64,000 bases of DNA, taken from assembly GCF_017751145.1 (NCBI RefSeq), contig NZ_CP046640.1:1282137-1346136 (forward strand), read 5' to 3'. The DNA comes from Iocasia fonsfrigidae. Its GTDB lineage: Bacteria; Bacillota; Halanaerobiia; Halanaerobiales; DTU029. Below are positions 7,303 through 64,000 of the stretch, piece by piece. Under the pieces are notes generated by a model, which searched no databases, was not told the DNA's origin, and was given only the letters and a program-made list of their open reading frames with translations. The position numbers were made by a program, and so were the translations under genes. Position 1 is the first letter of the stretch. Every line of letters begins with the position of its first letter.

Positions 7303-8275
7303 CATAGGTTCTGTAAGTATCAATGTTATAGCAATAGATTCAAAAAATGAGATTCTTTTTAAGTCTTACTGCCGTAATTCAGGTGAGCCTGTGGAAATAG
7401 TAAAAGAGGTCTTAACAGACCTTCAGGAAAAGGTTAAAAACAGATACAATGTTAAAGGAGTAGGAGTGACCGGAAGCGGCAGGCAGTTAATTGGCTACAT
7501 ACTGGGGGCAGATGTTGTTAAAAATGAAATTACTGCCCATGCAACAGCTACAATTTATTATCACCCTGATGTCAGTACTATCTTTGAAATAGGTGGGCAG
7601 GATTCAAAACTCATAATAGTCAAGGATAGGATAGTAACTGATTTTGCTATGAATACTGTCTGTGCTGCTGGGACAGGTTCTTTTCTTGATCATCAGGCCC
7701 AGCGTTTAGGGGTAAAGATCGAGGAGTTTGGAGAACTGGCCCTGACAGCTGAGAGGGATGTCAGAATAGCTGGTAGGTGTACTGTTTTCGCTGAGTCAGA
7801 TATGATCTCTAAACAGCAGTATGGTTTTACCAAGGCGGAAATAATAAAGGGTTTATCAGAGGCCCTGGTCAGGAACTATATTAATAATATAGTCAGGGGT
7901 AAAAAGATTAAACCAGTATATGTCTTCCAGGGTGGGGTAGCTGCTAATGTTGGTATCAAAGCTGCCTTTGAGAAAGAGATCGGCAGTGAGGTTATTATAC
8001 CGGAGCATTTTAATGTTATGGGGGCAATTGGTATAGCAATAATTGCCCGTAATTACATCCTTAAAAATGAGACAGATACAAATTTTAAAGGTTTTGCAGT
8101 GACCAGGGATAGTTTTAATACAAGTACCTTTACCTGTAGTGGTTGTCCGAATATGTGTGAAGTTATTAAAATCCAGGCAAATGGGACAACTATTGCTATG
8201 ACAGGGGATAGGTGTGGTAAATGGTCAAATTCACTTAAGAGCAGTGAGGATCTTCTGGATACTACTACAGCCTAA
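7277..8275 (+). CDS. CoA-substrate-specific enzyme activase (BadF/BadG/HgdC-like ATPase)
   Basis: A 332-residue ASKHA-fold ATPase of the HgdC/BcrA-BadF family, which uses ATP to fire a low-potential electron into a dehydratase or reductase. Seen: phosphate loop LGIDIGSVSINVIAID at the N-terminus, EIGGQDSKLI, the hallmark NTVCAAGTGSFLDHQAQRLG, and AGRCTVFAESDM, whose cysteines bridge a 4Fe-4S cluster between two activase monomers. An extra C-terminal tail carries CSGCPNMCEV and DRCGKW, more cysteines than HgdC has and typical of the fused-type activases. ATG 7277 has aggag at 7263-7267; it overlaps the upstream gene by 26 bp. Confidence 0.88.
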   Translation: MKDMYLGIDIGSVSINVIAIDSKNEILFKSYCRNSGEPVEIVKEVLTDLQEKVKNRYNVKGVGVTGSGRQLIGYILGADVVKNEITAHATATIYYHPDVSTIFEIGGQDSKLIIVKDRIVTDFAMNTVCAAGTGSFLDHQAQRLGVKIEEFGELALTAERDVRIAGRCTVFAESDMISKQQYGFTKAEIIKGLSEALVRNYINNIVRGKKIKPVYVFQGGVAANVGIKAAFEKEIGSEVIIPEHFNVMGAIGIAIIARNYILKNETDTNFKGFAVTRDSFNTSTFTCSGCPNMCEVIKIQANGTTIAMTGDRCGKWSNSLKSSEDLLDTTTA

Positions 8276-8284
8276 TAATATAAG

Positions 8285-8310
8285 AGGAAGTACTCAAATG
8301 AGTACTTCCT
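8285..8310. terminator. Bidirectional hairpin between convergent genes
   Basis: Perfect 11-bp stem AGGAAGTACTC/GAGTACTTCCT with a 4-nt loop, between the convergent activase gene and the small gene downstream of hydG. There is no long T run on the plus side; on the minus strand it is followed by an AT-rich tail. Confidence 0.6.
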
Positions 8311-8317
8311 GGTTAAG

Positions 8318-8650
8318 TCATTTAATTTCCATAATTGACAACATGAATTCCTCCAGGTTTTTTATCTCAGATGAAGGTAGTTCCTGGTGGCTCTCAATAA
8401 ACAGTAAGTAATTATCTGTCAGTGGTATTTTAACTGCTTTTACATAAAGCTCTTTACCGGCTCCGGTCAGATATGAGATTCGTTTGCCTAGCATCTCGGC
8501 TATATATATTTTCCTTTTGGGAAAGTAATCTACATATTTTTTACAGAGGGTTTTAAAGATTTGTTTTAATGTCTGCTGGTTTTCTTCGGCGATTTTCTTC
8601 TGGACATCAGTAAAAAATTCTTTCAATTTATTTTTATTATACGAAGACAT
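8318..8650 (-). CDS. Uncharacterised protein coupled to hydG
   Basis: About 110 residues starting MSSYNKNKLKEFF. I recognise no family. It is a mixed alpha/beta protein with a highly charged N-terminal helix, two cysteines-poor strands and an acidic C-terminus (LPSSEIKNLEEFMLSIMEI). I chose the ATG at 8650 because it overlaps the hydG stop by 14 bp with gaagg upstream; an in-frame ATG exists at 8668. The overlap makes it the last gene of the hydrogenase maturation operon and suggests translational coupling to HydG. A role in hydrogenase assembly or sensing is guilt by association only. Confidence 0.65.
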   Translation of the reverse strand: MSSYNKNKLKEFFTDVQKKIAEENQQTLKQIFKTLCKKYVDYFPKRKIYIAEMLGKRISYLTGAGKELYVKAVKIPLTDNYLLFIESHQELPSSEIKNLEEFMLSIMEIK

Positions 8651-10037
8651 CACGTTTACCTTCTTCAATTAAAGCGAGTTTTTCTACAATCATTTCCTTC
8701 CTTGCCTGATCTTTTACAGCCATTTCCTTTAGATTTTCTGCAATTAATTTTTCGCCTGCTTTAATTGTTTCAGGGGAGGCATAATCAAGTAGGTATTCCT
8801 TAAAAGTAAGGATAGCATTTGGCATACAAAATTTATGTACTAAACCAGGTTTGGCAAAGGACATGAAGTGTTCGCCTGTCCTGCCGCATCTGTATCCTGC
8901 TGTACAAAATGAGGGTACAAAGCCCAGTTCACATGCTTCAGCTATAACCTCATCAAGGGAACGGATATCTCCTAGATGGAATTGTTCTTTTTCAGGGATA
9001 TAGCCTTCTTCACTCTGTTTATACCCACCAATCCCTATTCTGGAACCAGCATCAATCTGGGTTACCCCCAGAGGTATCATTTCTTTTCTAATTTTAGCAC
9101 TTTCCCGGGCAGTTAAGATTAAGCCAGTATAAGGGACTGATAAGCGGATAATGGCAATAATTTTTTTGAAATCTTCATCTGAGACATGATATTTTTTATT
9201 ATTGTAAAAGGGGGTATTAATTGCTGGTTCAATCCTGGGGATTGAAATAGTATGTGGCCCAACACCAAATTTTTCTTCCAGGTGGATAGTATGATAAAGC
9301 AGCCCCATTACTTCAAACTTCCAGTCATATAGACCGAAAAGGGCCCCAATACCCAGGTCATCGATACCTGCCTCCATAGCTCTATCAAGACCATAGAGCC
9401 TCCACTGATAGTCACTTTTTTGATCACCTTTGGGGTGAATTAGTGAATATGTCTGGTGGTGATATGTTTCTTGAAATATCTGGAAGGTACCAATCCCTGT
9501 ATCATGTAGTTTCCTGTATTCATCAACTTCCAGTGGGGCAGCATTAATATTAACCCGGCGTATTTCCCCCTGTTCTGTTTTAGTGTCATAGGCCTTTCTT
9601 ATTGTTTTACAGATAAAATCTGCATTATAATCAGGATGTTCTCCATAAACAAGGATAAGCCTTTTCTGACCCTTGTTTTCCAGGATTAAGACCTCTTCTT
9701 CTAATTCATCCATGGTCAGGGTTTTTCTTTCGACAGCTTCATTATCTCGCCTGAAGGCACAGTATAAACAATTATTTATACATCTGTTTCCAATATATAG
9801 TGGTGCAAAGAAAACAATTCTATTGCCATATACAGATTGCTTTACCTGACCAGCCAGTTGATAAATTTCTTCTAGCAAATCTGTGTCATTGACCTGTAGT
9901 AATTTGGCTGTTTCTTCTGGGTTAAGCCTGTTTTTTTCTTTAGATTTAGCCATAATCTCTCTTATTTCAAGGGGATCAGGTTCTTTAGAACTTTCCAGTA
10001 AATTATGAATCTCTCTGTCGTTAATAAAATCCTTCAT
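8637..10037 (-). CDS. hydG: [FeFe]-hydrogenase maturase HydG
   Basis: A 466-residue radical-SAM tyrosine lyase that makes the CO and cyanide ligands of the hydrogenase H-cluster. The SAM cluster motif is C86-X3-C90-X2-C93 (CINNCLYC). The C-terminal region has the second, auxiliary cluster site seen in HydG (CTAGYRCGRTGEHFM, then HKFCMPNAILTFKEYL). The N-terminal DFINDREIHNLLE is also typical, and the length is normal. It lies 18 bp downstream of hydE in a regulator-hydE-hydG operon. hydF is not in this window. Confidence 0.96.
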   Translation of the reverse strand: MKDFINDREIHNLLESSKEPDPLEIREIMAKSKEKNRLNPEETAKLLQVNDTDLLEEIYQLAGQVKQSVYGNRIVFFAPLYIGNRCINNCLYCAFRRDNEAVERKTLTMDELEEEVLILENKGQKRLILVYGEHPDYNADFICKTIRKAYDTKTEQGEIRRVNINAAPLEVDEYRKLHDTGIGTFQIFQETYHHQTYSLIHPKGDQKSDYQWRLYGLDRAMEAGIDDLGIGALFGLYDWKFEVMGLLYHTIHLEEKFGVGPHTISIPRIEPAINTPFYNNKKYHVSDEDFKKIIAIIRLSVPYTGLILTARESAKIRKEMIPLGVTQIDAGSRIGIGGYKQSEEGYIPEKEQFHLGDIRSLDEVIAEACELGFVPSFCTAGYRCGRTGEHFMSFAKPGLVHKFCMPNAILTFKEYLLDYASPETIKAGEKLIAENLKEMAVKDQARKEMIVEKLALIEEGKRDVFV

Positions 10038-11953: not shown

Positions 11954-11991
11954 ATTCCCCTTCAGGTTTTTGTAATAATCTGAAGGGGAAT
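11954..11991 (+). terminator. Strong hairpin after DUF5320 gene
   Basis: Perfect 12-bp stem ATTCCCCTTCAG/CTGAAGGGGAAT with a 14-nt loop, followed by a weakly T-rich stretch (gtcttt). It lies 45 bp after the DUF5320 stop and 34 bp before the flavin reductase start, so it may partly uncouple the two. Confidence 0.65.
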
Positions 11992-12025
11992 GTCTTTAAA
12001 ATAAAAACTGGAGGTAATAATTATT

Positions 12026-12511
12026 ATGAAAAGAGATGTAAAGGAATTTAAATCATGTTTAAAACCGTCACCTGATGTTGTTGTTTCTTGTCGTGGAGCG
12101 AATGGGCAAGACAATGCACTTGTAGTAGCATATGCCTGCAATTGCAGTTATGATCCCCCAATGGTTATGGTAGGTATAGTACCTAGTAGGTATTCGTATC
12201 ATATGGTAAAAGAAACGGGTGTTTTTGTAGTTAATTTGGTGGCAGAGAAAAATAAAGAGGCTTTTGACTATTTAGGGAGTCATAGCGGTAGGGATGAAAA
12301 TAAATTAGAAAAATTGTCGTTGAATTATAAAGAAGGGGTTAAGGTTGCAGCACCAGTATTGCTGGATTTTCCAGTTAATATTGAATGTGAAGTGGTTGAT
12401 TCTATAAAAACAGGCTCTCATGAGATGTTTGTAGGAAAAGTAGTATATATTCATGCAGATGAAGAACTAATTGATGATGAGGGTAGAATAGTTTTTTCAA
12501 GAATCAAATAA
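12026..12511 (+). CDS. Flavin reductase-like FMN-binding protein
   Basis: A 161-residue single-domain split-barrel flavoprotein of the flavin reductase/DIM6-NTAB family. The N-terminal PSPDVVVSCRGANGQDNALVVAY... and PPMVMVGIVPSRYSYHMVKETG...FVVNLV patterns match family members in anaerobes that bind FMN and accept electrons from rubredoxin or NAD(P)H. Ribosome binding site ggaggtaa precedes ATG 12026. It ends 41 bp before the Fur-family gene, so the two may share a transcript, perhaps for oxidative-stress response. Confidence 0.85.
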   Translation: MKRDVKEFKSCLKPSPDVVVSCRGANGQDNALVVAYACNCSYDPPMVMVGIVPSRYSYHMVKETGVFVVNLVAEKNKEAFDYLGSHSGRDENKLEKLSLNYKEGVKVAAPVLLDFPVNIECEVVDSIKTGSHEMFVGKVVYIHADEELIDDEGRIVFSRIK

Positions 12512-12552: not shown

Positions 12553-13023
12553 ATGTCTAATGAGTATGAGAAAATAATAAACTGTATAGAAGGAAAGGGG
12601 GTTAGATTGACACCCCAGCGTAGGGCAGTTATTAATGTTTTTATTGAGAATAAGGATCAGCACCTGACAGCAGCTGATATATATGATCTCTTGAAAGTAA
12701 AGAATAGATCATTAGGTCTGGCTACAATATACAGAACATTAAACCTACTGGAGAATAAAGGTGTAGTAGTAAGAAGAAATTTTGATAGTGAGACCAGCAG
12801 TTACGAATTTATTATTAATCAGTCAGAACATAATCATTTAATTTGTAAAAGCTGTGGAAAGGTAATTGAAATACCTGACTTATTACCAGATAATTTCAAG
12901 GAAATTATTTTTGAACAGGAAAAGTTCCATTATATAGCACACAGTACTAAAGTTTATGGTTATTGTCAGGACTGTCAGAAAGAATTAAGGGAAGAAAAAA
13001 ATAATAATCAAGGAGTGAATTAA
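12553..13023 (+). CDS. Fur family metalloregulator (PerR/Fur/Zur type)
   Basis: A 156-residue winged-helix repressor. Seen: VRLTPQRRAVINVF and LGLATIYRTLNLLENKGVV (DNA-binding domain), the metal site around EHNHLICKSCGKVIE, and paired CXXC motifs (CKSCG and CQDCQ) that hold structural zinc. The sequence does not decide between PerR, Fur and Zur; the neighbouring flavin reductase would suit PerR. ATG 12553 is preferred over GTG 12535 because agagggggg sits directly before it. Its stop overlaps the start of the broken NifX-like gene (TAATG). Confidence 0.92.
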   Translation: MSNEYEKIINCIEGKGVRLTPQRRAVINVFIENKDQHLTAADIYDLLKVKNRSLGLATIYRTLNLLENKGVVVRRNFDSETSSYEFIINQSEHNHLICKSCGKVIEIPDLLPDNFKEIIFEQEKFHYIAHSTKVYGYCQDCQKELREEKNNNQGVN

Positions 13024-13189
13024 TGAAACTTTTAATCACTTGTGAAGATAATAATAATCAATTTAAGAGTAAATTTGATGCCAGGTTCGGTCGTGCTAAT
13101 TATTTTGCAATATAGAAACAGGTGAATTAGAATTTATAAAAAAGTTATTACAGACAAAAGTGGCAACTTATATGCAAGTTGCCGCTTAA
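13023..13189 (+). pseudogene. Truncated, frameshifted NifX-like cofactor-biosynthesis gene
   Basis: ATG 13023 overlaps the Fur stop (TAATG) and has ggag upstream. The frame reads MKLLITCEDNNNQFKSKFDARFGRANYFAI then stops at 13113-13115. In the +2 frame from 13112 the family sequence continues as IETGELEFIKK, the standard continuation after YFxIxD in dinitrogenase Fe-Mo cofactor biosynthesis (NifX/NafY-like) proteins, and then loses similarity. So the gene has lost one base near 13110 and most of its 3' end (the family is about 110-120 residues). Context with DUF5320 supports the family call. Confidence 0.8.
13158..13187. terminator. Hairpin at the end of the NifX-like remnant
   Basis: AAGTGGCAACTT/AAGTTGCCGCTT, 11 of 12 positions pairing, 6-nt loop, with no T tract. 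It lies at the point where the coding remnant ends. Confidence 0.5.
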
Positions 13190-13336
13190 CCTACGTTTAT
13201 TTGTGGAATGGAAGTGATTTAATATATTTTAGCTAAAATTAGTAAATTGTTTACGCCAAGTCCATGGATAATGGATTCCAAGAATAAAGTTTCGTGCCAG
13301 TACAATAGTATTGATTGTTCGTTTGCTTGCTGTGTG

Positions 13337-15460
13337 TCAGTCATTGTTTTTCTCAATTAAGTTGGTCAAATCCCCGGTATATGTAAGTGTTAAGCGGTGC
13401 ATTGCTCGAGTACAGGCAATATATAGTAGGCTACGGTCAAAATCCGTATAATAATTCTTTGTATTGGCTCCAGGAATCAACACCTCGTCAAATTCCAATC
13501 CTTTTGACATTCGAACAGAAGTAATAGTTATACCATTTGTGAATTTATCACTGTCTAAGGTAAGTAGTTGGATATCATATTCCTTGCTTAAAACATCAAA
13601 AAGGGATTGTGCCTCTTGATTTGTTTTTAAAATAATACCTAATGTCACAAACTTGTTTTTGAAGAAACGAATTATCTCCTCTTTAATTTTGGTAAGTTCA
13701 TCTTCCAAATCACAGCAAGTGATTATTTTGGGGACATCACCATGTCTTTCAATTGCTTTAAGATCCAATACATTCTGAATCCTTTTTGTAAAAGTAATGA
13801 TTTCAAAGGTAGAGCGGTAGCTTTTATTCAATTCCATAAATTCGGCATCTGGATAGATTGTGCGCAAGTCGTTGAGCGCATGTATATTGTTTGGGTTTAT
13901 ACTTTGCCCAAAATCACCGAGTATTGTTTTATTACACGGAAAGAGTTTATTTATCACGGTGTATTGTACAGGAGTATAATCCTGCATTTCATCGATAATA
14001 AGATGCCGGATGAGCCGGTTTTCTTTCAATCCTTCTAATGCAGCATGAAAATACATGAAGGGATAAACATCTGGCCATTCTAATACTCCTTTTTTATGCA
14101 ACACCAGCTTTTCCGGCATATTCATAACCTTAAAAAAGTCTTTATAGAGGGCTAAAGTGTTACTAAACTTAAGCATGGAAACCAGCTTTCTATAAATTAC
14201 CTTCTGCTTAGGTAACTCTTCACCACGGATGTTAGCAATTTTAAATTGTTCAAGAATATCTTCTGATACCCGATGCAACCGTTTTTTTATGGGATGTCTT
14301 TGATAAGCGTTATATCGCGTCAATATCCAATCCCGCGTTGCTTTGAAACGACCAAATTCATAATCACTGGGAACAAAATACTCCTTTGCGGCATATTCCA
14401 AATAATTGTCCATCATCATAACAAAATCGAGTGTAGACTTAAACTTTGCCCTTTCGTTCCATGCCGAGTCATTTATTTCAATGGGGTCACAATCTGGTTC
14501 ATAATTTATAACTTTATCCAGTTGAATATCCGCAATGTCAGCAAAGCTCATTTCCCCAATTGGTTCTTCACCTAGTTCGGGTAAAACATTGGAAATATAA
14601 TCTACAAACACCTTATTGGGAGAAAGTATAACCACATTATTTGCCGATAAGTCGTCTTTGTACCGATACAGTAAATATGCCACCCGGTGTAAGGCAATAG
14701 AAGTTTTTCCCGACCCTGCAACACCTTGAATAACCATGGTTCCCGCCTTTTCGTTTCTGATAATCTGGTTTTGTTCCCGTTGAATTGTGGCAATAATTGT
14801 TTTCATCTTTTTATCTGATGTATGACTTAACTCTCGCTGTAATACATCATCACGGATGTTTATAGCACTTTCCAAAACATATTCCATCAAACCATTTGAT
14901 ATTTTAAACTGCCGTTTACGAGTAAGCTCACCTTCAATCCTCCCCATCGGCGCTTCATATCCTGCACGTCCCAGCTCATAATCGTAAAACATGCTGGAAA
15001 TAGGTGCACGCCAATCATAAATAAGGATTTCAGATTTATCTGAAAAAGAAAACCGACCAATATAAAAAACATTAGCATTGTCATCACCATCATAAGTAAA
15101 ATCAATGCGTGCAAAATAAGGGGAATTGACTAGCTTTGCAAGCTTTTCCCGCAATTGTACTGCAAATATTCCCGAATTTTCAATTTGTTTCATAAGAAGT
15201 TCATTTTGACAAATTTCCCGCGGGTCTATCTCATGACGGTAGTCAGCAAGATAGAGTTTGGATTCCATATACTCTCTATCATATTGATTTACCCTTTCTT
15301 CCGCCTGTTCTAAAGCATTCTTTAGCCTTATTTTAATCTTTTCAAGGTTCTCAATTTCATCAGGAAATTTTGAAAGCACATCATCGTCATTTTCCACTGT
15401 ATGATCATGACGGTCAGATGTATTATCTGTCTTCCTGCCTTTTTGTCTTGATTTATTCAT
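13337..15460 (-). CDS. HelD-like superfamily 1 helicase / RNA polymerase recycling ATPase
   Basis: 707 residues of the UvrD-like HelD/HelR family, which removes stalled or drug-bound RNA polymerase from DNA rather than acting as a repair helicase. An N-terminal coiled coil (about 33-75) is followed by the HelD-typical block YIGRFSFSDKSEILIYDWRAPISSMFYDYE. Walker A is GVAGSGKTS (246-253), motif II LIIDEMQDYTPVQY, motif III GDFGQSINP, and the late motifs are LNKSYRSTFEI and SVRMSKGLEFDEVLIPG. The adjacent AraC-GNAT gene overlaps its start by 8 bp. Some HelR homologues give rifamycin resistance; whether this one does cannot be told. Confidence 0.88.
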   Translation of the reverse strand: MNKSRQKGRKTDNTSDRHDHTVENDDDVLSKFPDEIENLEKIKIRLKNALEQAEERVNQYDREYMESKLYLADYRHEIDPREICQNELLMKQIENSGIFAVQLREKLAKLVNSPYFARIDFTYDGDDNANVFYIGRFSFSDKSEILIYDWRAPISSMFYDYELGRAGYEAPMGRIEGELTRKRQFKISNGLMEYVLESAINIRDDVLQRELSHTSDKKMKTIIATIQREQNQIIRNEKAGTMVIQGVAGSGKTSIALHRVAYLLYRYKDDLSANNVVILSPNKVFVDYISNVLPELGEEPIGEMSFADIADIQLDKVINYEPDCDPIEINDSAWNERAKFKSTLDFVMMMDNYLEYAAKEYFVPSDYEFGRFKATRDWILTRYNAYQRHPIKKRLHRVSEDILEQFKIANIRGEELPKQKVIYRKLVSMLKFSNTLALYKDFFKVMNMPEKLVLHKKGVLEWPDVYPFMYFHAALEGLKENRLIRHLIIDEMQDYTPVQYTVINKLFPCNKTILGDFGQSINPNNIHALNDLRTIYPDAEFMELNKSYRSTFEIITFTKRIQNVLDLKAIERHGDVPKIITCCDLEDELTKIKEEIIRFFKNKFVTLGIILKTNQEAQSLFDVLSKEYDIQLLTLDSDKFTNGITITSVRMSKGLEFDEVLIPGANTKNYYTDFDRSLLYIACTRAMHRLTLTYTGDLTNLIEKNND

Positions 15461-26046: not shown

Positions 26047-27351
26047 ATGGAGAAAAATGTAATTCTAGAAATAAATTCTTTGTCTTTTTATAACAATGAT
26101 TGGACTAATCTTGAAGATGTTTTACTTAAAATATGTAAAGGAGAGATATTTGCATTAATAGGAGAAACTGGGTCTGGAAAAACAACACTAGTCAATATAC
26201 TGGCAGGGATAATTAATGATTATGAAGGTAGACTTCTCTATAAAGATTATTTGCTTGTTGATGAGGTAAGAAAAAGGGAATTTGGATTTTTATTTGAGAA
26301 TTCATCATTAATAAAGGAGTTAAGTGTAGCAGAAAATCTAGCTTTAATTAAATATCCTAGAAGGGGTATTTCTCCATTAATAAGTTGGAAAAAGGTTAAT
26401 AAACAAGCCGCTAAGGCCTTTGATAAATTCGGTTTAGAAATTGAACACCATAAAACAATTGGCGATCTTATGCCTGAGAAACAAAAGCTGGTAGAAATAA
26501 TTAAGCTAGTTTTGGCAGAACCAGAGATTTTAGTTTTACATGAACCTACTAATAATTTAAATGTTGATACAATTAATATCTTATATGATATAATAAATTA
26601 TTATACGGAAAAAGGTGGAACAGTAATTTATGTGACCAGGCAATGGGAAGAAGCTCTAAAAGTTGCCGATAATATAGCTGTATTAACTAAAGGAAAGATT
26701 GCTGGGGTTTTAAATGTCGATGATGCTAAAAAAAATCCGCAGAAGTTGATTAATTTGTATCTTGGTAATTCCAGCAATCAAGAAGCTGAAAAAGATGATA
26801 TGGGTGTAATTGATTCCATTTTTAAAGCTGCTGAATTTTTAGCGTCAGAATATGAATTGAAAGATATTTTGAATTTTTTTGCTGAGCGTGTTAGTGGAAT
26901 TATGGGGGCAAATAGTTGTATTATCGATTTGATCGATGAAAAGGCGAAAACAGTTATTAATAGAGTGTTGTATAATCATAATAATTTACCACAGTTAAAA
27001 TTAGATAAAAAGATTGAAATTATAAAAAATAACAAATTGTTTTATTTGACTGAACGGGATAAAGAATTTAAGTCTTTTTTTGAAGATGATCCAGTAGAAA
27101 CCAAAACCTTAATTTGTGCACCGGTATTGATGCGTTCTCAACTGGCTGGAATAATAGAACTTTATTATGAGAATATTTTTGTATATTCTGAAAAAGAATG
27201 GAAATACTTATCTACTCTGGCACGGCAAGCAGGAATTGCTGTAGAGGATACAAGATTGATGGGACGTTCAGCTCTTTTAAAGGAAAGTCATCATAGGATA
27301 AAAAACAATTTACAATCTATTATTAGTTTGATATCTATTCAAAGGAATTAG
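26047..27351 (+). pseudogene. Truncated ABC-GAF-histidine kinase fusion
   Basis: 434 residues, colinear with the first about 437 of the 620-residue kinase at 59953. ABC domain (1-240): Walker A GETGSGKT (39-46) intact, signature LMPEKQ, Walker B LVLHEP with His165 in place of Asp, and RQW instead of the H-loop His. GAF domain about 260-410. The phosphoacceptor segment ESHHRIKNNLQ (413-423) is present, but the frame ends at SLISIQRN, before the rest of the dimerisation helix and the whole ATP-binding domain. The next bases encode a piece of another gene, so the end is a deletion junction at about 27343-27350. Without a kinase core it cannot signal by phosphotransfer. Confidence 0.85.
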
Positions 27352-27440
27352 TGGAGGTAATCAACAAAAGGTGGTACTGGCAAAATGGTTAGGAACTGAT
27401 TGCAAGATACTAATATTTGATGAACCTACTCGTGGTATTG
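27345..27440 (+). pseudogene. Fragment of a sugar ABC transporter ATPase
   Basis: In one frame the bases encode [16 protein letters not shown], then [13 protein letters not shown]: the signature and Walker B of the second ABC domain of an AraG/RbsA-type ATPase. The sequence then switches abruptly to a dehydrogenase. Both ends are junctions with unrelated genes, so only about 32 codons remain. Confidence 0.85.
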
Positions 27441-27833
27441 CTTTGTATAAACCCTGTTGAAGAAGATGCTATTAAAAAGATTAAAGAGATGACTGATGGT
27501 TATGGTTGTGATGTTTATATTGAAGCTACAGGTTCACCTGTTGGTGTAACACAGGGTTTAGAGATGATTAGAAAATTAGGTCGTTTTGTTCAATTTAGTG
27601 TTTTTGGCAAGGAAACTACCACTGACTGGAGTGTGATTGGTGATAGGAAAGAACTTGATATTAGAGGTTCTCATTTGGGTCCATACACTTATCCAGTAGT
27701 TATTGATTTATTTGAAAGAGGTCTTCTTTCCGCTGAGGGTATTGTCACAACTACCTATCCTGTTGAGGATTTTGCAGAAGCCCTGGCTAAAGCACAGGAA
27801 AAAGACTCAATTAAAGTATTATTAAAACCATAG
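27440..27833 (+). pseudogene. C-terminal fragment of a zinc-type alcohol dehydrogenase
   Basis: About 130 codons from [21 protein letters not shown] onward match the C-terminal part of medium-chain sorbitol/threonine-type dehydrogenases: DVYIEATGSPVGVTQGLEMI, GRFVQFSVFGKETTTDW, KELDIRGSHLGPYTYP, TTYPVEDFAEALAKAQ. The N-terminal catalytic zinc domain and most of the Rossmann start are missing; the reading frame begins inside the ABC ATPase fragment in another frame, so the translated start (MMNLLVVL) is an artefact of the fusion. Confidence 0.85.
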
Positions 27834-59952: not shown

Positions 59953-61815
59953 ATGAATCAAATTATATTTGAGATAAAGGGTTTATCAGGAACAAATCAG
60001 GATGGTTACTCACTAAAAAAAATAGATTTTGACCTAGTGAAAGGGGAAGTACATGCTTTAGTTGGAGAAAAAGGTATGGGTAAAAAAGCCTTTTATGAAC
60101 TTTTGTTGGGCTCCGGTGATTATGAACAGGGTCAGATTTATATTAAAAATAAAAATATTACCTTACATTTAAATGAAGTGAAGAATAATAAGATATCTTA
60201 TTTAAGTGATGATGTAGGATTAATTGATAATTTTACTGTAGCAGAAAATTTATTTTTGTTAAACTACCCTTCAAAAAAGTATTCTCCTTCAATCGATTGG
60301 AAAAAAATCAATAGAATGGCTAAGCAGCTATTTGACGAACTTAATGTGAAAATAGACTATAATAAAAAGGTTTATGAATTATCTAATGAAGAACAGAAAA
60401 TAGTGGCTATTGCTAAGTTATATCTAATCAAACCTGAAGTTATCATAATGCATGAACCTACAGATAATTTAGGGGCTAAATCAATTATCTTATTATATAA
60501 AATAATTAATAAAATGAAAAAAAGAGGAGCCAGTATTATTTATGTAACCAATGAATGGGAAGAGGCCTTGAAAATTGCTGATAGAATATCGGTCCTATCT
60601 AGAGGGATTATTGTTGGGACAATGGAAAGTAGTGAAGCTAAAGCCAATCCCCGAAAACTACTAAACTTAATCTCCGGCTGGAATAGAATGGAGAGTAAAA
60701 ATGAAGACGTTGATCATTATAGTTTAGAGGTATTAAACGTTGTATTTAAAGCAGCAGAATTTCTCACTTCAAATTATGAGTTAGAGGATGTACTTAAATT
60801 TTTAGTCAATCATATAACTAAGGTTATGAACTCTGATAATTGTATAATATATTTAATAGATGAAGAAACAGATTCTGTAATAGATTATGTTGATTATAAC
60901 AAATCTAAGGATATTGATGCCAAACTAAAAAGAAATGTTGTTATTGATATAATTAAAGAAAATGAGTCATACTATACAACTGATAATGATAGGGAATTTA
61001 AGGCCTATTTTACCAACCTCAAAAATATAAAGACAATTATTTGTGTTCCTGTCTTAATAAGGTCGCATATAACGGGGTTAATACAAATTTCTTACCGGGA
61101 CTACTATGCCCATTCAGAAAAAGAGATAATGTATCTATCGACCTTTGCCAGACAGGTTGCTATTGCTATCGAAGATACCAGATTGATGGGTAATTCAGCC
61201 CTTCTGCAGGAAAGTCATCATCGTATAAAAAATAATTTACAGACTATTATAAGTCTTATAAAGTTACAGAAAAAATTTACAAAAAAAGATTCCTCAAAAA
61301 CAATAGATGATATAATAAATGATATTATTTCCAGGATAAAGAGTATTGCTGCAGTACATGACCTCCTTTCTAGAGAAAAGCAGGGAAGAAGTATTATAAA
61401 CTTCAAAGAGATAATAAAGATAATCACTAAATTTTATAATAATAACGAAAAAGTTAATATTAAATTAATATTAGATGATATTTTTATCCCCTATAATAAG
61501 GCTACAGCTATAGCATTAATAATAAATGAATTAATTAATAACTGTTATAAACATGCCTTTAAAAACCAAAATAAAGGGATTGTAAGGGTAAGCTGTAAAA
61601 ATCAAAACAATAATATTGTTCTGCTTGTTAGTGATAATGGGCATGGATTACCAGAATCGTTTGATATAGATAATTTAAATAGTCTTGGAATTTCAATTGT
61701 CCAGTCAATTATTTTGAATGAATTTGAGGGTCAGATTGACTTCAAAAATAATAAGGGTACTGTAGTTGAGATTATACTACCAGAGGATAAGCTGGCACTT
61801 ACTAAATGGGAATGA
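59953..61815 (+). CDS. ABC-domain / GAF / HisKA_2 histidine kinase fusion
   Basis: 620 residues. 1-240: an ABC ATPase domain of the sugar-transporter class, with degenerate Walker A GEKGMGKK (38-45), signature LSNEEQ (143-148), Walker B VIIMHEP where His167 replaces the Mg-binding Asp while Glu168 stays, and Asn200 in place of the H-loop His. 260-415: GAF domain. 420-470: HisKA_2 dimerisation helix with ESHHRIKNNLQ (H422/H423 phosphoacceptor). 515-610: HATPase with ELINNCYKHAF (N box) and DNGHGLP (G box). No membrane helix or signal peptide, so cytosolic. The next gene, 23 bp on, is a receiver-ANTAR protein, as in the GAF-kinase/ANTAR pairs PdtaS/PdtaR and EutW/EutV. The ABC part presumably docks on or senses a transporter; that is inference. 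Confidence 0.88.
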   Translation: MNQIIFEIKGLSGTNQDGYSLKKIDFDLVKGEVHALVGEKGMGKKAFYELLLGSGDYEQGQIYIKNKNITLHLNEVKNNKISYLSDDVGLIDNFTVAENLFLLNYPSKKYSPSIDWKKINRMAKQLFDELNVKIDYNKKVYELSNEEQKIVAIAKLYLIKPEVIIMHEPTDNLGAKSIILLYKIINKMKKRGASIIYVTNEWEEALKIADRISVLSRGIIVGTMESSEAKANPRKLLNLISGWNRMESKNEDVDHYSLEVLNVVFKAAEFLTSNYELEDVLKFLVNHITKVMNSDNCIIYLIDEETDSVIDYVDYNKSKDIDAKLKRNVVIDIIKENESYYTTDNDREFKAYFTNLKNIKTIICVPVLIRSHITGLIQISYRDYYAHSEKEIMYLSTFARQVAIAIEDTRLMGNSALLQESHHRIKNNLQTIISLIKLQKKFTKKDSSKTIDDIINDIISRIKSIAAVHDLLSREKQGRSIINFKEIIKIITKFYNNNEKVNIKLILDDIFIPYNKATAIALIINELINNCYKHAFKNQNKGIVRVSCKNQNNNIVLLVSDNGHGLPESFDIDNLNSLGISIVQSIILNEFEGQIDFKNNKGTVVEIILPEDKLALTKWE

Positions 61816-61838: not shown

Positions 61839-62438
61839 ATGAACAAAGATAATTATTTGAAAGTAGTAGTAGCAGAAGATGAATATATGGTTTTGATGGG
61901 TATTAAAGAAATGGTAGAGGAATTAGGACATGAAATTATTGGTGAGGCTACTAATGGGAAAAAAGCAGTTGAAATAACATTAAAGGAAAAACCGGATTTA
62001 TTAATTATAGATATTAATATGCCTGTTTTAGATGGTATAGATGCAATAAAAAAGATAAATGAGCTTTATCCCATGCCCAGTATTGTAGTAACCGGGTATT
62101 ATAATAAGGAATTAATAGATAGGGCTAAAAAAGCCGGGGCTTTTAGTTATCTTGTAAAACCAATAGACGAAAAAGACTTACAACCTGCTATCGAAATGGC
62201 TAGTGCCAGGTTTGAAGAATTTCTATCATTGAGAAAAGAATTACAGGAAACACAGGCAGCCTTTGAAGCTAGAAAATATATTGAAAAGGCGAAGGGCATT
62301 TTGATGGATAAATATAATATAAAGGAAAGTCAGGCAATGAAAACCTTACAGAAAAAAAGCAGAAATAATAATAAAAAGCTAGTTGTAACTGCAAAAGAAA
62401 TTATAAAAGCTGATAAATTATTGCAAATTGATGAATAA
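61839..62438 (+). CDS. Response regulator with ANTAR RNA-binding domain
   Basis: 199 residues. Receiver 8-125 with acidic pocket VVVAEDEYM, phosphoacceptor Asp58 (LLIIDINMP), Thr in SIVVTGYY and Lys in YLVKPID. A coiled linker (LRKELQETQAAFEARK) leads into a C-terminal three-helix ANTAR domain (IEKAKGILMDKYNIKESQAMKTLQKKSR). ANTAR proteins bind tandem RNA hairpins and stop terminator formation. It is co-transcribed with the kinase before it. Immediately downstream is a leader with two matching hairpins and a terminator, its probable target. Confidence 0.93.
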   Translation: MNKDNYLKVVVAEDEYMVLMGIKEMVEELGHEIIGEATNGKKAVEITLKEKPDLLIIDINMPVLDGIDAIKKINELYPMPSIVVTGYYNKELIDRAKKAGAFSYLVKPIDEKDLQPAIEMASARFEEFLSLRKELQETQAAFEARKYIEKAKGILMDKYNIKESQAMKTLQKKSRNNNKKLVVTAKEIIKADKLLQIDE

Positions 62439-62504: not shown

Positions 62505-62533
62505 TTGATATATTGATTATTTTACGATATAAT
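62505..62533 (+). promoter_or_regulatory. Promoter of sugar transporter operon
   Basis: TTGATA (62505-62510), 17-bp spacer, TATAAT (62528-62533). Transcription would begin near 62540, 18 nt before the first hairpin of the ANTAR-type leader. Confidence 0.75.
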
Positions 62534-62764: not shown

Positions 62765-62822
62765 TATTTTATTGGAAAAGTAATAAGCGGTTAAAACTCA
62801 AATTTTAAAAGGAGTGATTTTT

Positions 62823-63791
62823 TTGTTAAAAAGCAAACGGTTTATTATTATCTTAGGAGTTATTTTAACTACGATATTTATTTCCACTTCAATTTTGGCA
62901 GCTGGGTTTAATCAGGAAGATTTATTAGAACCAGTAGATAAGACCCTTAAATTTGTCTTTATCCCTAAAGTTGTTCATCCCTGGTATGATGTTGTTAGAG
63001 CTGGTGCTGAAAAAGCCATCGAAGAGTTTGCAGACCAGGGGATCAAAATTGATCTGAAATGGGATGCACCACCAACTGCAGAAATAACTGCTCATATGAA
63101 AAAAATAGAAGCAAATATTAGTGCCCGTCCAGATGGAATGGCAATAGCAGTCTTAGACCCTGCCACTAATACTCAGGTTATTAATGATGCAGTAAATGCA
63201 GGATTAAATGTGGTTACTTTTGATACAGATGCACCTGATAGTCTAAGGGCTTGTTATATTGGACATGACAAAAATTTTGAAGATGGCTATGTACTTGGAG
63301 AATTTTTGGCCAAAAAAATAAATTATAAGGGTGAAGTAGCTATCCTGAGTGGTACATTAAGTGCACCAAATCATGTGGGGCGTGTAAATGGTTTTAAAGC
63401 TGCAATTGAACAGTATCCATATATAAAAATTGTAACTGAAAGACCTGATAATGATTCACTACAAAAGGCTATGGAATTAACTGAAAATATAATTCAAGCC
63501 TTCCCTAATATAGATGGTTTCTTTGGTTGTAATGCTACAAATCCTATAGGGGCAGCACGTGCTGTGGAAAATGCAGGTTTAGTAGGGAAAGTTCACATTG
63601 TTGGTATGGATGATCTAGATGAAACAATTCAATATGTCCAAAAAGGTGTTATTGATGCTGTTAAAATTCAACGTCAATGGGAAATTGGTTACTGGACTGT
63701 AAAATATTTGGTGGCAATGAATCAAAACCATACTATACCAGAGGAACACCCTACTGGTTCAAAAGTAATTACTGGTAGTGATTTAAACTAA
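62823..63791 (+). CDS. Periplasmic sugar-binding protein of ABC transporter
   Basis: 322 residues. Signal peptide about 1-27 (IIILGVILTTIFISTSILAA) with no lipobox cysteine. The mature part is a ribose/galactose-type binding protein (Peripla_BP_4): FVFIPKVVHPWYDVVRAGAEKAIEEF, PDGMAIAVLDPATNTQVINDAVNAGLNVVTFDTDAP, FFGCNATNPIGAARAVENAG. TTG 62823 follows aaaggag by about 8 nt. It is the first gene after the ANTAR leader; the ATPase gene follows. The sugar is unknown and the protein differs clearly from the one at 20432. Confidence 0.88.
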   Translation: MLKSKRFIIILGVILTTIFISTSILAAGFNQEDLLEPVDKTLKFVFIPKVVHPWYDVVRAGAEKAIEEFADQGIKIDLKWDAPPTAEITAHMKKIEANISARPDGMAIAVLDPATNTQVINDAVNAGLNVVTFDTDAPDSLRACYIGHDKNFEDGYVLGEFLAKKINYKGEVAILSGTLSAPNHVGRVNGFKAAIEQYPYIKIVTERPDNDSLQKAMELTENIIQAFPNIDGFFGCNATNPIGAARAVENAGLVGKVHIVGMDDLDETIQYVQKGVIDAVKIQRQWEIGYWTVKYLVAMNQNHTIPEEHPTGSKVITGSDLN

Positions 63792-63854: not shown

Positions 63855-64000
63855 GTGATTTCAATTAATAATGTAGTAATGGAAATCAAAAATATATCTA
63901 AATCTTTTCCAGGAGTTAAGGCTCTAAATAATGTAAGTATGACCCTTAAAAAAGGGGAGATACATGCTTTAATTGGTGAAAATGGAGCTGGTAAAAGCAC
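63855..64000 (+). CDS. Sugar ABC transporter ATPase, N-terminal part (runs off window)
   Basis: 48 codons visible: [19 protein letters not shown], then [20 protein letters not shown], the start of an RbsA/MglA-type ATPase up to Walker A. GTG 63855 (in ggaagtgatt) or ATG 63879 may be the start; the former leaves only a close aaagg upstream, the latter has no near site. It belongs to the transporter operon with the binding protein at 62823 and is cut by the window end. Confidence 0.9.

Follow-up and report, generated by a model that had tools for sequence, protein, structure and literature searches.

A soluble histidine kinase with an importer-type ATPase domain as the probable sensor of a self-regulating sugar-import module

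Introduction

Histidine kinases that take their cue from ABC transporters have been described in two settings. In the Bce modules (BceAB-BceS) the expression of an ABC transporter is controlled by a histidine kinase that reads this same transporter (PMC10314905, PMC6978683), and in the PstSCAB-PhoU-PhoR system an ABC importer does the sensing for a two-component pathway (PMC6978683). Neither of these precedents, BceS (PMC10314905) or PhoR (PMC6978683), is described there with an ABC domain. BceS is a membrane kinase which contacts the permease via its transmembrane helices and has no dedicated sensing domain, while BceAB is an antibiotic-resistance transporter. The Pst system acts through an adaptor, PhoU, and PhoR has no ABC domain.

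A second group of relatives consists of the EutW/EutV and PdtaS/PdtaR pairs, in which a cytoplasmic HisKA_2 kinase is likewise coupled to a receiver-ANTAR regulator (PMC3369931, PMC8131098). The RNA target of EutV is a twin hairpin that overlaps a terminator, with hexanucleotide loops carrying A1 and G4 (PMC3369931). Here we describe a kinase from Iocasia fonsfrigidae that, unlike these pairs as described, carries an ABC domain. It is encoded near the end of the window, by which we mean the whole 64,000-nucleotide stretch analysed (NZ_CP046640.1, positions 1,282,137 to 1,346,136). The HisKA_2-ANTAR two-component system is known; the importer-derived sensor domain is what is new here. Our search of open-licence papers found no description of an ABC-kinase fusion, and among the 60 best sequence matches in the PDB, none spans both the ABC and the kinase parts in its best stretch. 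What, then, is the motor domain of a sugar importer doing at the head of a histidine kinase?

Domain organization of the kinase

The gene (59953..61815, + strand) is a single intact reading frame of 620 codons without internal stop, and its ATG start has GGAG upstream. The protein begins with an ABC domain of the RbsA N-half type that has lost catalytic residues (residues 1-245, 59953..60687), followed on the same strand by a GAF domain (residues 276-407, 60778..61173), a HisKA_2 domain carrying the HHRIKNNLQ motif (residues 420-493, 61210..61431) and an HATPase_c domain (residues 517-612, 61501..61788). All four Pfam domains exceed their curated cut-offs (for example ABC_tran over residues 21-170 at 6e-20, GAF over residues 276-406, and HisKA_2 over residues 420-493 at 8e-17). 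With its phospho-acceptor histidine and HATPase domain the protein has the make-up of a HisKA_2-type kinase, and HHRIKNNLQ is identical in all 21 aligned copies. There is no membrane-span-like stretch (the top 19-residue Kyte-Doolittle mean is 1.58), so that a Bce-type membrane kinase touching its permease by transmembrane helices does not fit. The preliminary description, which saw the four domains fused in one soluble protein, is borne out by the intact frame and the Pfam matches. A PdtaS-type HisKA_2 kinase that lacks an ABC domain (L049, 1784-3223) is encoded in the same genome and offers a natural outgroup.

Distribution of the fusion

The fusion kinase occurs in 13 of the 59 genomes of the host's class (its own counted), with 45-53% full-length identity to the window copy, and a second intact copy lies in the same genome (G000:C1:3639800-3641629). 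A 398-genome sample of the phylum added G138, G059, G350 and G401, while class-level searches added G449 and G457, making 20 copies beyond the window kinase and extending the family to three other classes. The plasmid search gave no match to the fusion kinase, and a scan of genome contigs returned two distant ABC ATPase matches and nothing more. Including the window copy, the alignment holds 21 sequences: 18 are unbroken, L021 has an in-frame TAG, L003 (at window position 26047) is truncated and L067 is cut by a contig end. They divide into 17 core copies, which have lost both the Walker B aspartate and the H-loop histidine, and four distant ones. The preliminary description had looked to homologues with the same fusion elsewhere, and these exist; the sequencing error or joined frames that it named as a danger are ruled out by the single frame and the 20 further copies. 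The view that the fusion is a one-off accident, or an artefact of annotation or sequencing, could call on the broken copies at 26047 and L021, but it is refuted by eighteen unbroken copies in many genomes and deserves practically no credence.

The copy at 26047 needs separate mention. By comparison with the intact kinase of L042 (G025), it is a truncated remnant (26047..27351, + strand), with window positions 26062-27348 aligning to residues 8-438. It runs into 33 codons of RbsA (27341..27439, +, residues 398-430 of the L042 protein) and then into the last third of a dehydrogenase (27441..27830, +, residues 229-358), and the whole region reads as the scar that deletions have left of a third module, which is located behind the arabinose operon. 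Its candidacy as a working, supporting paralogue was therefore rejected. From this copy it had been argued that the motif changes of the ABC domain are conserved and not decay: the conclusion is right, on the strength of the other copies, but the argument was weak, since a truncated remnant cannot by itself prove conservation.

Two further observations concern single loci. In L037 (G006:C22) the kinase gene (7566-9419) is interrupted at codon 150 by a TAG in frame, and a frame break splits the RbsC gene beside it (12924-13927), the marks of a decaying module. The kinase genes of L029 and L030 are nearly identical in their GAF and kinase parts (dS 0.38 and 0.14) but have diverged in the ABC part (dS 0.95), a pattern suggestive of recombination within the gene, among its parts.

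Loss of catalytic residues in the importer-type ATPase domain

In a tree the ABC domain clusters with the N-halves of RbsA-type ATPases, apart from the C-halves, and its best NCBIfam matches are YtfR, AlsA, MglA, the xylose ATPase, RbsA and AraG. An RbsA-type N-half as the origin of the domain is thereby supported, and the same two lines of evidence rule out an RbsA C-half or a non-sugar ATPase as the source. Though of the same N-half type as the CUT2 ATPases RbsA, MglA and AraG, the domain differs from them in being a single half where they have two fused halves per chain, in its fusion to a kinase and in its lost catalytic residues; the operon encodes an RbsA as well.

The changes in the window kinase are as they had been described. 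Its Walker A position reads GEKGMGKK (residues 38-45, 60064..60087, +), with the Ser/Thr alone lost, its Walker B reads IIMHEP with histidine for aspartate (residue 167, 60451..60453, +), and its H-loop reads VTNEW with asparagine for histidine (residue 200, 60550..60552, +), leaving it without the complete motifs of a CUT2 N-half. The Walker B aspartate and the H-loop histidine are present in all 29 RbsA N-halves and in none of the 17 core kinases, which retain the Walker A lysine in 76% of copies and the catalytic glutamate in all. Among the kinases, L022 and L026-L028 have an intact Walker A and L023-L025 and L054 a destroyed one, with GSGKK as an intermediate form. The four distant copies, which the preliminary description did not include, retain Walker A and the Walker B aspartate, and one of them, L060, the H-loop histidine too; since they do, the simplest reading of the sequences is that fusion came first and catalytic loss after. 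Loss of the LSGGQ signature was also considered as a kinase-specific feature and was ruled out, RbsA N-halves lacking it too (e.g., LSVAEQQ, LSIAQKQ).

The kinase ABC domain remains under purifying selection. In two groups of close relatives its dN/dS is 0.09-0.25, as compared with 0.06-0.09 for RbsA N-halves, and these low values, found even where Walker A is gone, argue that a non-catalytic role has been retained. The AlphaFold model of the window kinase, of middling confidence as a whole (mean pLDDT 71.5), shows the ABC fold in full, matching 1ji0 over 224 residues with a VIA-align Z of 25.0 and an rmsd of 2.8, and the domain is whole in every unbroken copy. Five residues invariant in and specific to the kinases (K149, T199, W202, L206 and K207) group around the signature and H-loop stretches. 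Importers take up the coupling helix of the permease beside the stretch following the Q-loop, and in the kinases that stretch retains L90, E98 and N99.

What could such a domain do other than contact the importer? One answer would make it a nucleotide or energy-state sensor, in which binding of ATP or ADP by the ABC domains of the kinase dimer sets kinase activity with no importer contact. The lysine and glutamate kept in the core copies, together with the Walker A and B of the distant ones, speak for it, but the Walker B aspartate is gone from every core copy, and L023-L025 and L054 have lost their Walker A even though purifying selection persists in the pairs tested (L023-L025). Because some copies do without Walker A, and because a nucleotide sensor leaves the constant tie to one importer type unexplained, we regard this answer as unlikely. 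Alternatively, the domain could be the vestige of a gene fusion within the operon, now a spacer or an aid to dimerization, the sensing of an internal metabolite being left to the GAF domain. GAF domains often bind small ligands. In PdtaS, for one, it is the GAF domain that detects Cu and NO (PMC8131098). Moreover, no part of the kinase changes faster than the ABC domain (mean distance 1.31 vs 0.81 for the catalytic part). Purifying selection, the complete predicted fold, its integrity in every unbroken copy and the kinase-specific invariant residues all weigh against a vestige, which makes this quite improbable. We favour docking on the importer, and on its permease in particular, as the best explanation of the sequences, since a constrained and catalytically dead importer ATPase domain encoded beside an importer has few other likely uses.

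The importer operon

On the + strand the kinase gene adjoins that of a receiver-ANTAR response regulator (61839..62438; Pfam Response_reg 1.4e-25, ANTAR 1.8e-16), beyond which lie the genes for a sugar-binding protein (Peripla_BP_4, 62814..63791) and for the operon's own RbsA-type ATPase, whose start (63855..64000) continues past the window. Downstream of the window end come the rest of this two-half RbsA, then RbsC, then a transketolase split in two genes, a continuation that can be seen in L036 (992-5268). The regulator adjoins the kinase in 19 of 19 judgeable loci, and all 19 have genes for a CUT2 permease and/or RbsA in the same stretch. The tabulation of neighbours proposed in the preliminary description has thus returned an RbsC-type permease or RbsA gene every time. 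The catabolic neighbours vary: besides the split transketolase of the window there are an FGGY kinase with AraD and a dehydrogenase, a glycyl radical enzyme, GH32 with PTS genes, and galactose-type genes, these last named from translated starts only. In L043 a reading frame of ISIHAPAWGAT repeats (11958-12230) is possibly a CRISPR array.

Kinase and transport protein distances correlate across modules (Mantel, 0 of 1000 permutations as high). A mirror-tree test that corrects for the distances of kinase and regulator leaves no further association of the ABC domain with RbsC (partial correlation -0.05), which is a null outcome as regards specific docking, and its comparison with the RbsA N-half (0.14) holds nothing beyond co-inheritance. 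These figures bear on the reading that the ABC domain is a mock N-half which pairs with RbsA, and reads or modulates the true ATPase and not the permease. Its shared origin with the RbsA N-half would suit such pairing, as would the invariant residues near the signature and H-loop, and the partial correlation of 0.14, though small, is the highest of the four computed. But that value is not clearly different from zero, and the two halves of RbsA already pair within their own chain, for which reasons we consider pairing with RbsA rather unlikely.

The leader RNA

In nearly all loci the stretch between the regulator and transport genes has the same anatomy: two hairpins, P1 and P2, are separated by a short linker, and P2 shares sequence with the 5′ arm of the terminator that follows. 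In the window (+ strand) a promoter-like site, TTGATA-17-TATAAT, which matches the consensus at 11 of 12 positions and is named from that match only (62505..62533), is followed by P1 (62557..62579, loop CATGAAC), P2 (62589..62605, loop CATGGAC) and an intrinsic terminator with a T run that excludes P2 (62595..62641). The leader folds as P1 plus terminator (-33.1 kcal/mol, z -6.3). A simple terminator scan missed the latter because its loop exceeds the length allowed there. Leaders of L038, L039 and L040 have an additional copy of P1 upstream.

Double changes occur at 7 of the 12 pairs of the twin hairpin. Paired cells reach 91% as against 36-51% in slid controls, and double-change cells number 32 against 3-12, so that both the paired cells and the covariation score exceed all slid controls. 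A covariance model built from 15 leaders, run on 12 whole genomes, found one site per intact module and matched only at these leaders; in three genomes without the kinase it found no match. It also recovered an out-of-sample leader in G015, whose contig opens in the last part of an ANTAR regulator gene, with the leader, the binding protein, RbsA and RbsC following in that order. The match is weak in L061 and absent in L062. Rfam gave no match in nine kinase loci.

This is the plan of an EutV target, two hairpins with a short linker, the second overlapping an intrinsic terminator. The loops differ: they are mostly of seven nucleotides (N-A-W-G-R-N-N, with A at position 2 and G at 4), where those of EutV are hexanucleotides with A1 and G4. 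By analogy, and from adjacency and shared occurrence, the leader is a putative target of the ANTAR regulator. This RNA switch, like the distant members with near-intact motifs, is an addition to what had been described.

A self-regulating import module

From the fusion, its conservation, constraint without catalysis, the operon and the RNA anatomy, all of which can be read directly, we infer the remaining steps, namely importer docking, signal, phosphotransfer and RNA binding. It is rather probable that the kinase acts as sensor in a sugar-import module that regulates itself, the importer serving as receptor and the regulator antiterminating the importer operon. The ABC domain would tether the soluble kinase to the importer of its own module. 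The likeliest site, already suggested in the preliminary description, would be RbsC, the permease on which the true ATPase docks as well, with RbsA as the alternative. This contact would respond to sugar arriving with the binding protein, or to the importer's working cycle, and the linker and GAF domain would relay the change so as to alter kinase activity. The HisKA_2/HATPase part would then phosphorylate the adjoining receiver-ANTAR regulator, as family and adjacency suggest, and the regulator, on the precedent of EutV (PMC3369931), would bind the twin hairpin of the leader and block the terminator, allowing transcription of the genes for the binding protein, RbsA, RbsC and the catabolic enzymes. 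With antitermination of the importer by kinase and regulator the circuit would close, and the cell would probably be reading the importer itself to set its amount. A bolder version, which we advance only tentatively, is that the two dead ATPase domains of a kinase dimer replace RbsA on the RbsC dimer. Binding protein and permease would then form a transmembrane sugar receptor, and the permease would come in two forms: transporter when paired with RbsA, receptor when paired with the kinase.

Significance

If true, this would be a soluble kinase that senses sugar outside the cell by carrying a copy of its importer's motor domain as an adaptor. The members of the family, which range from near-intact to dead ATPase domains, suggest how a part of a transport machine may become a sensor. 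As modules of the same plan stand beside different catabolic genes, the rules of docking and the swapping of sensors are testable, and the leader RNA offers a ready read-out of the module.
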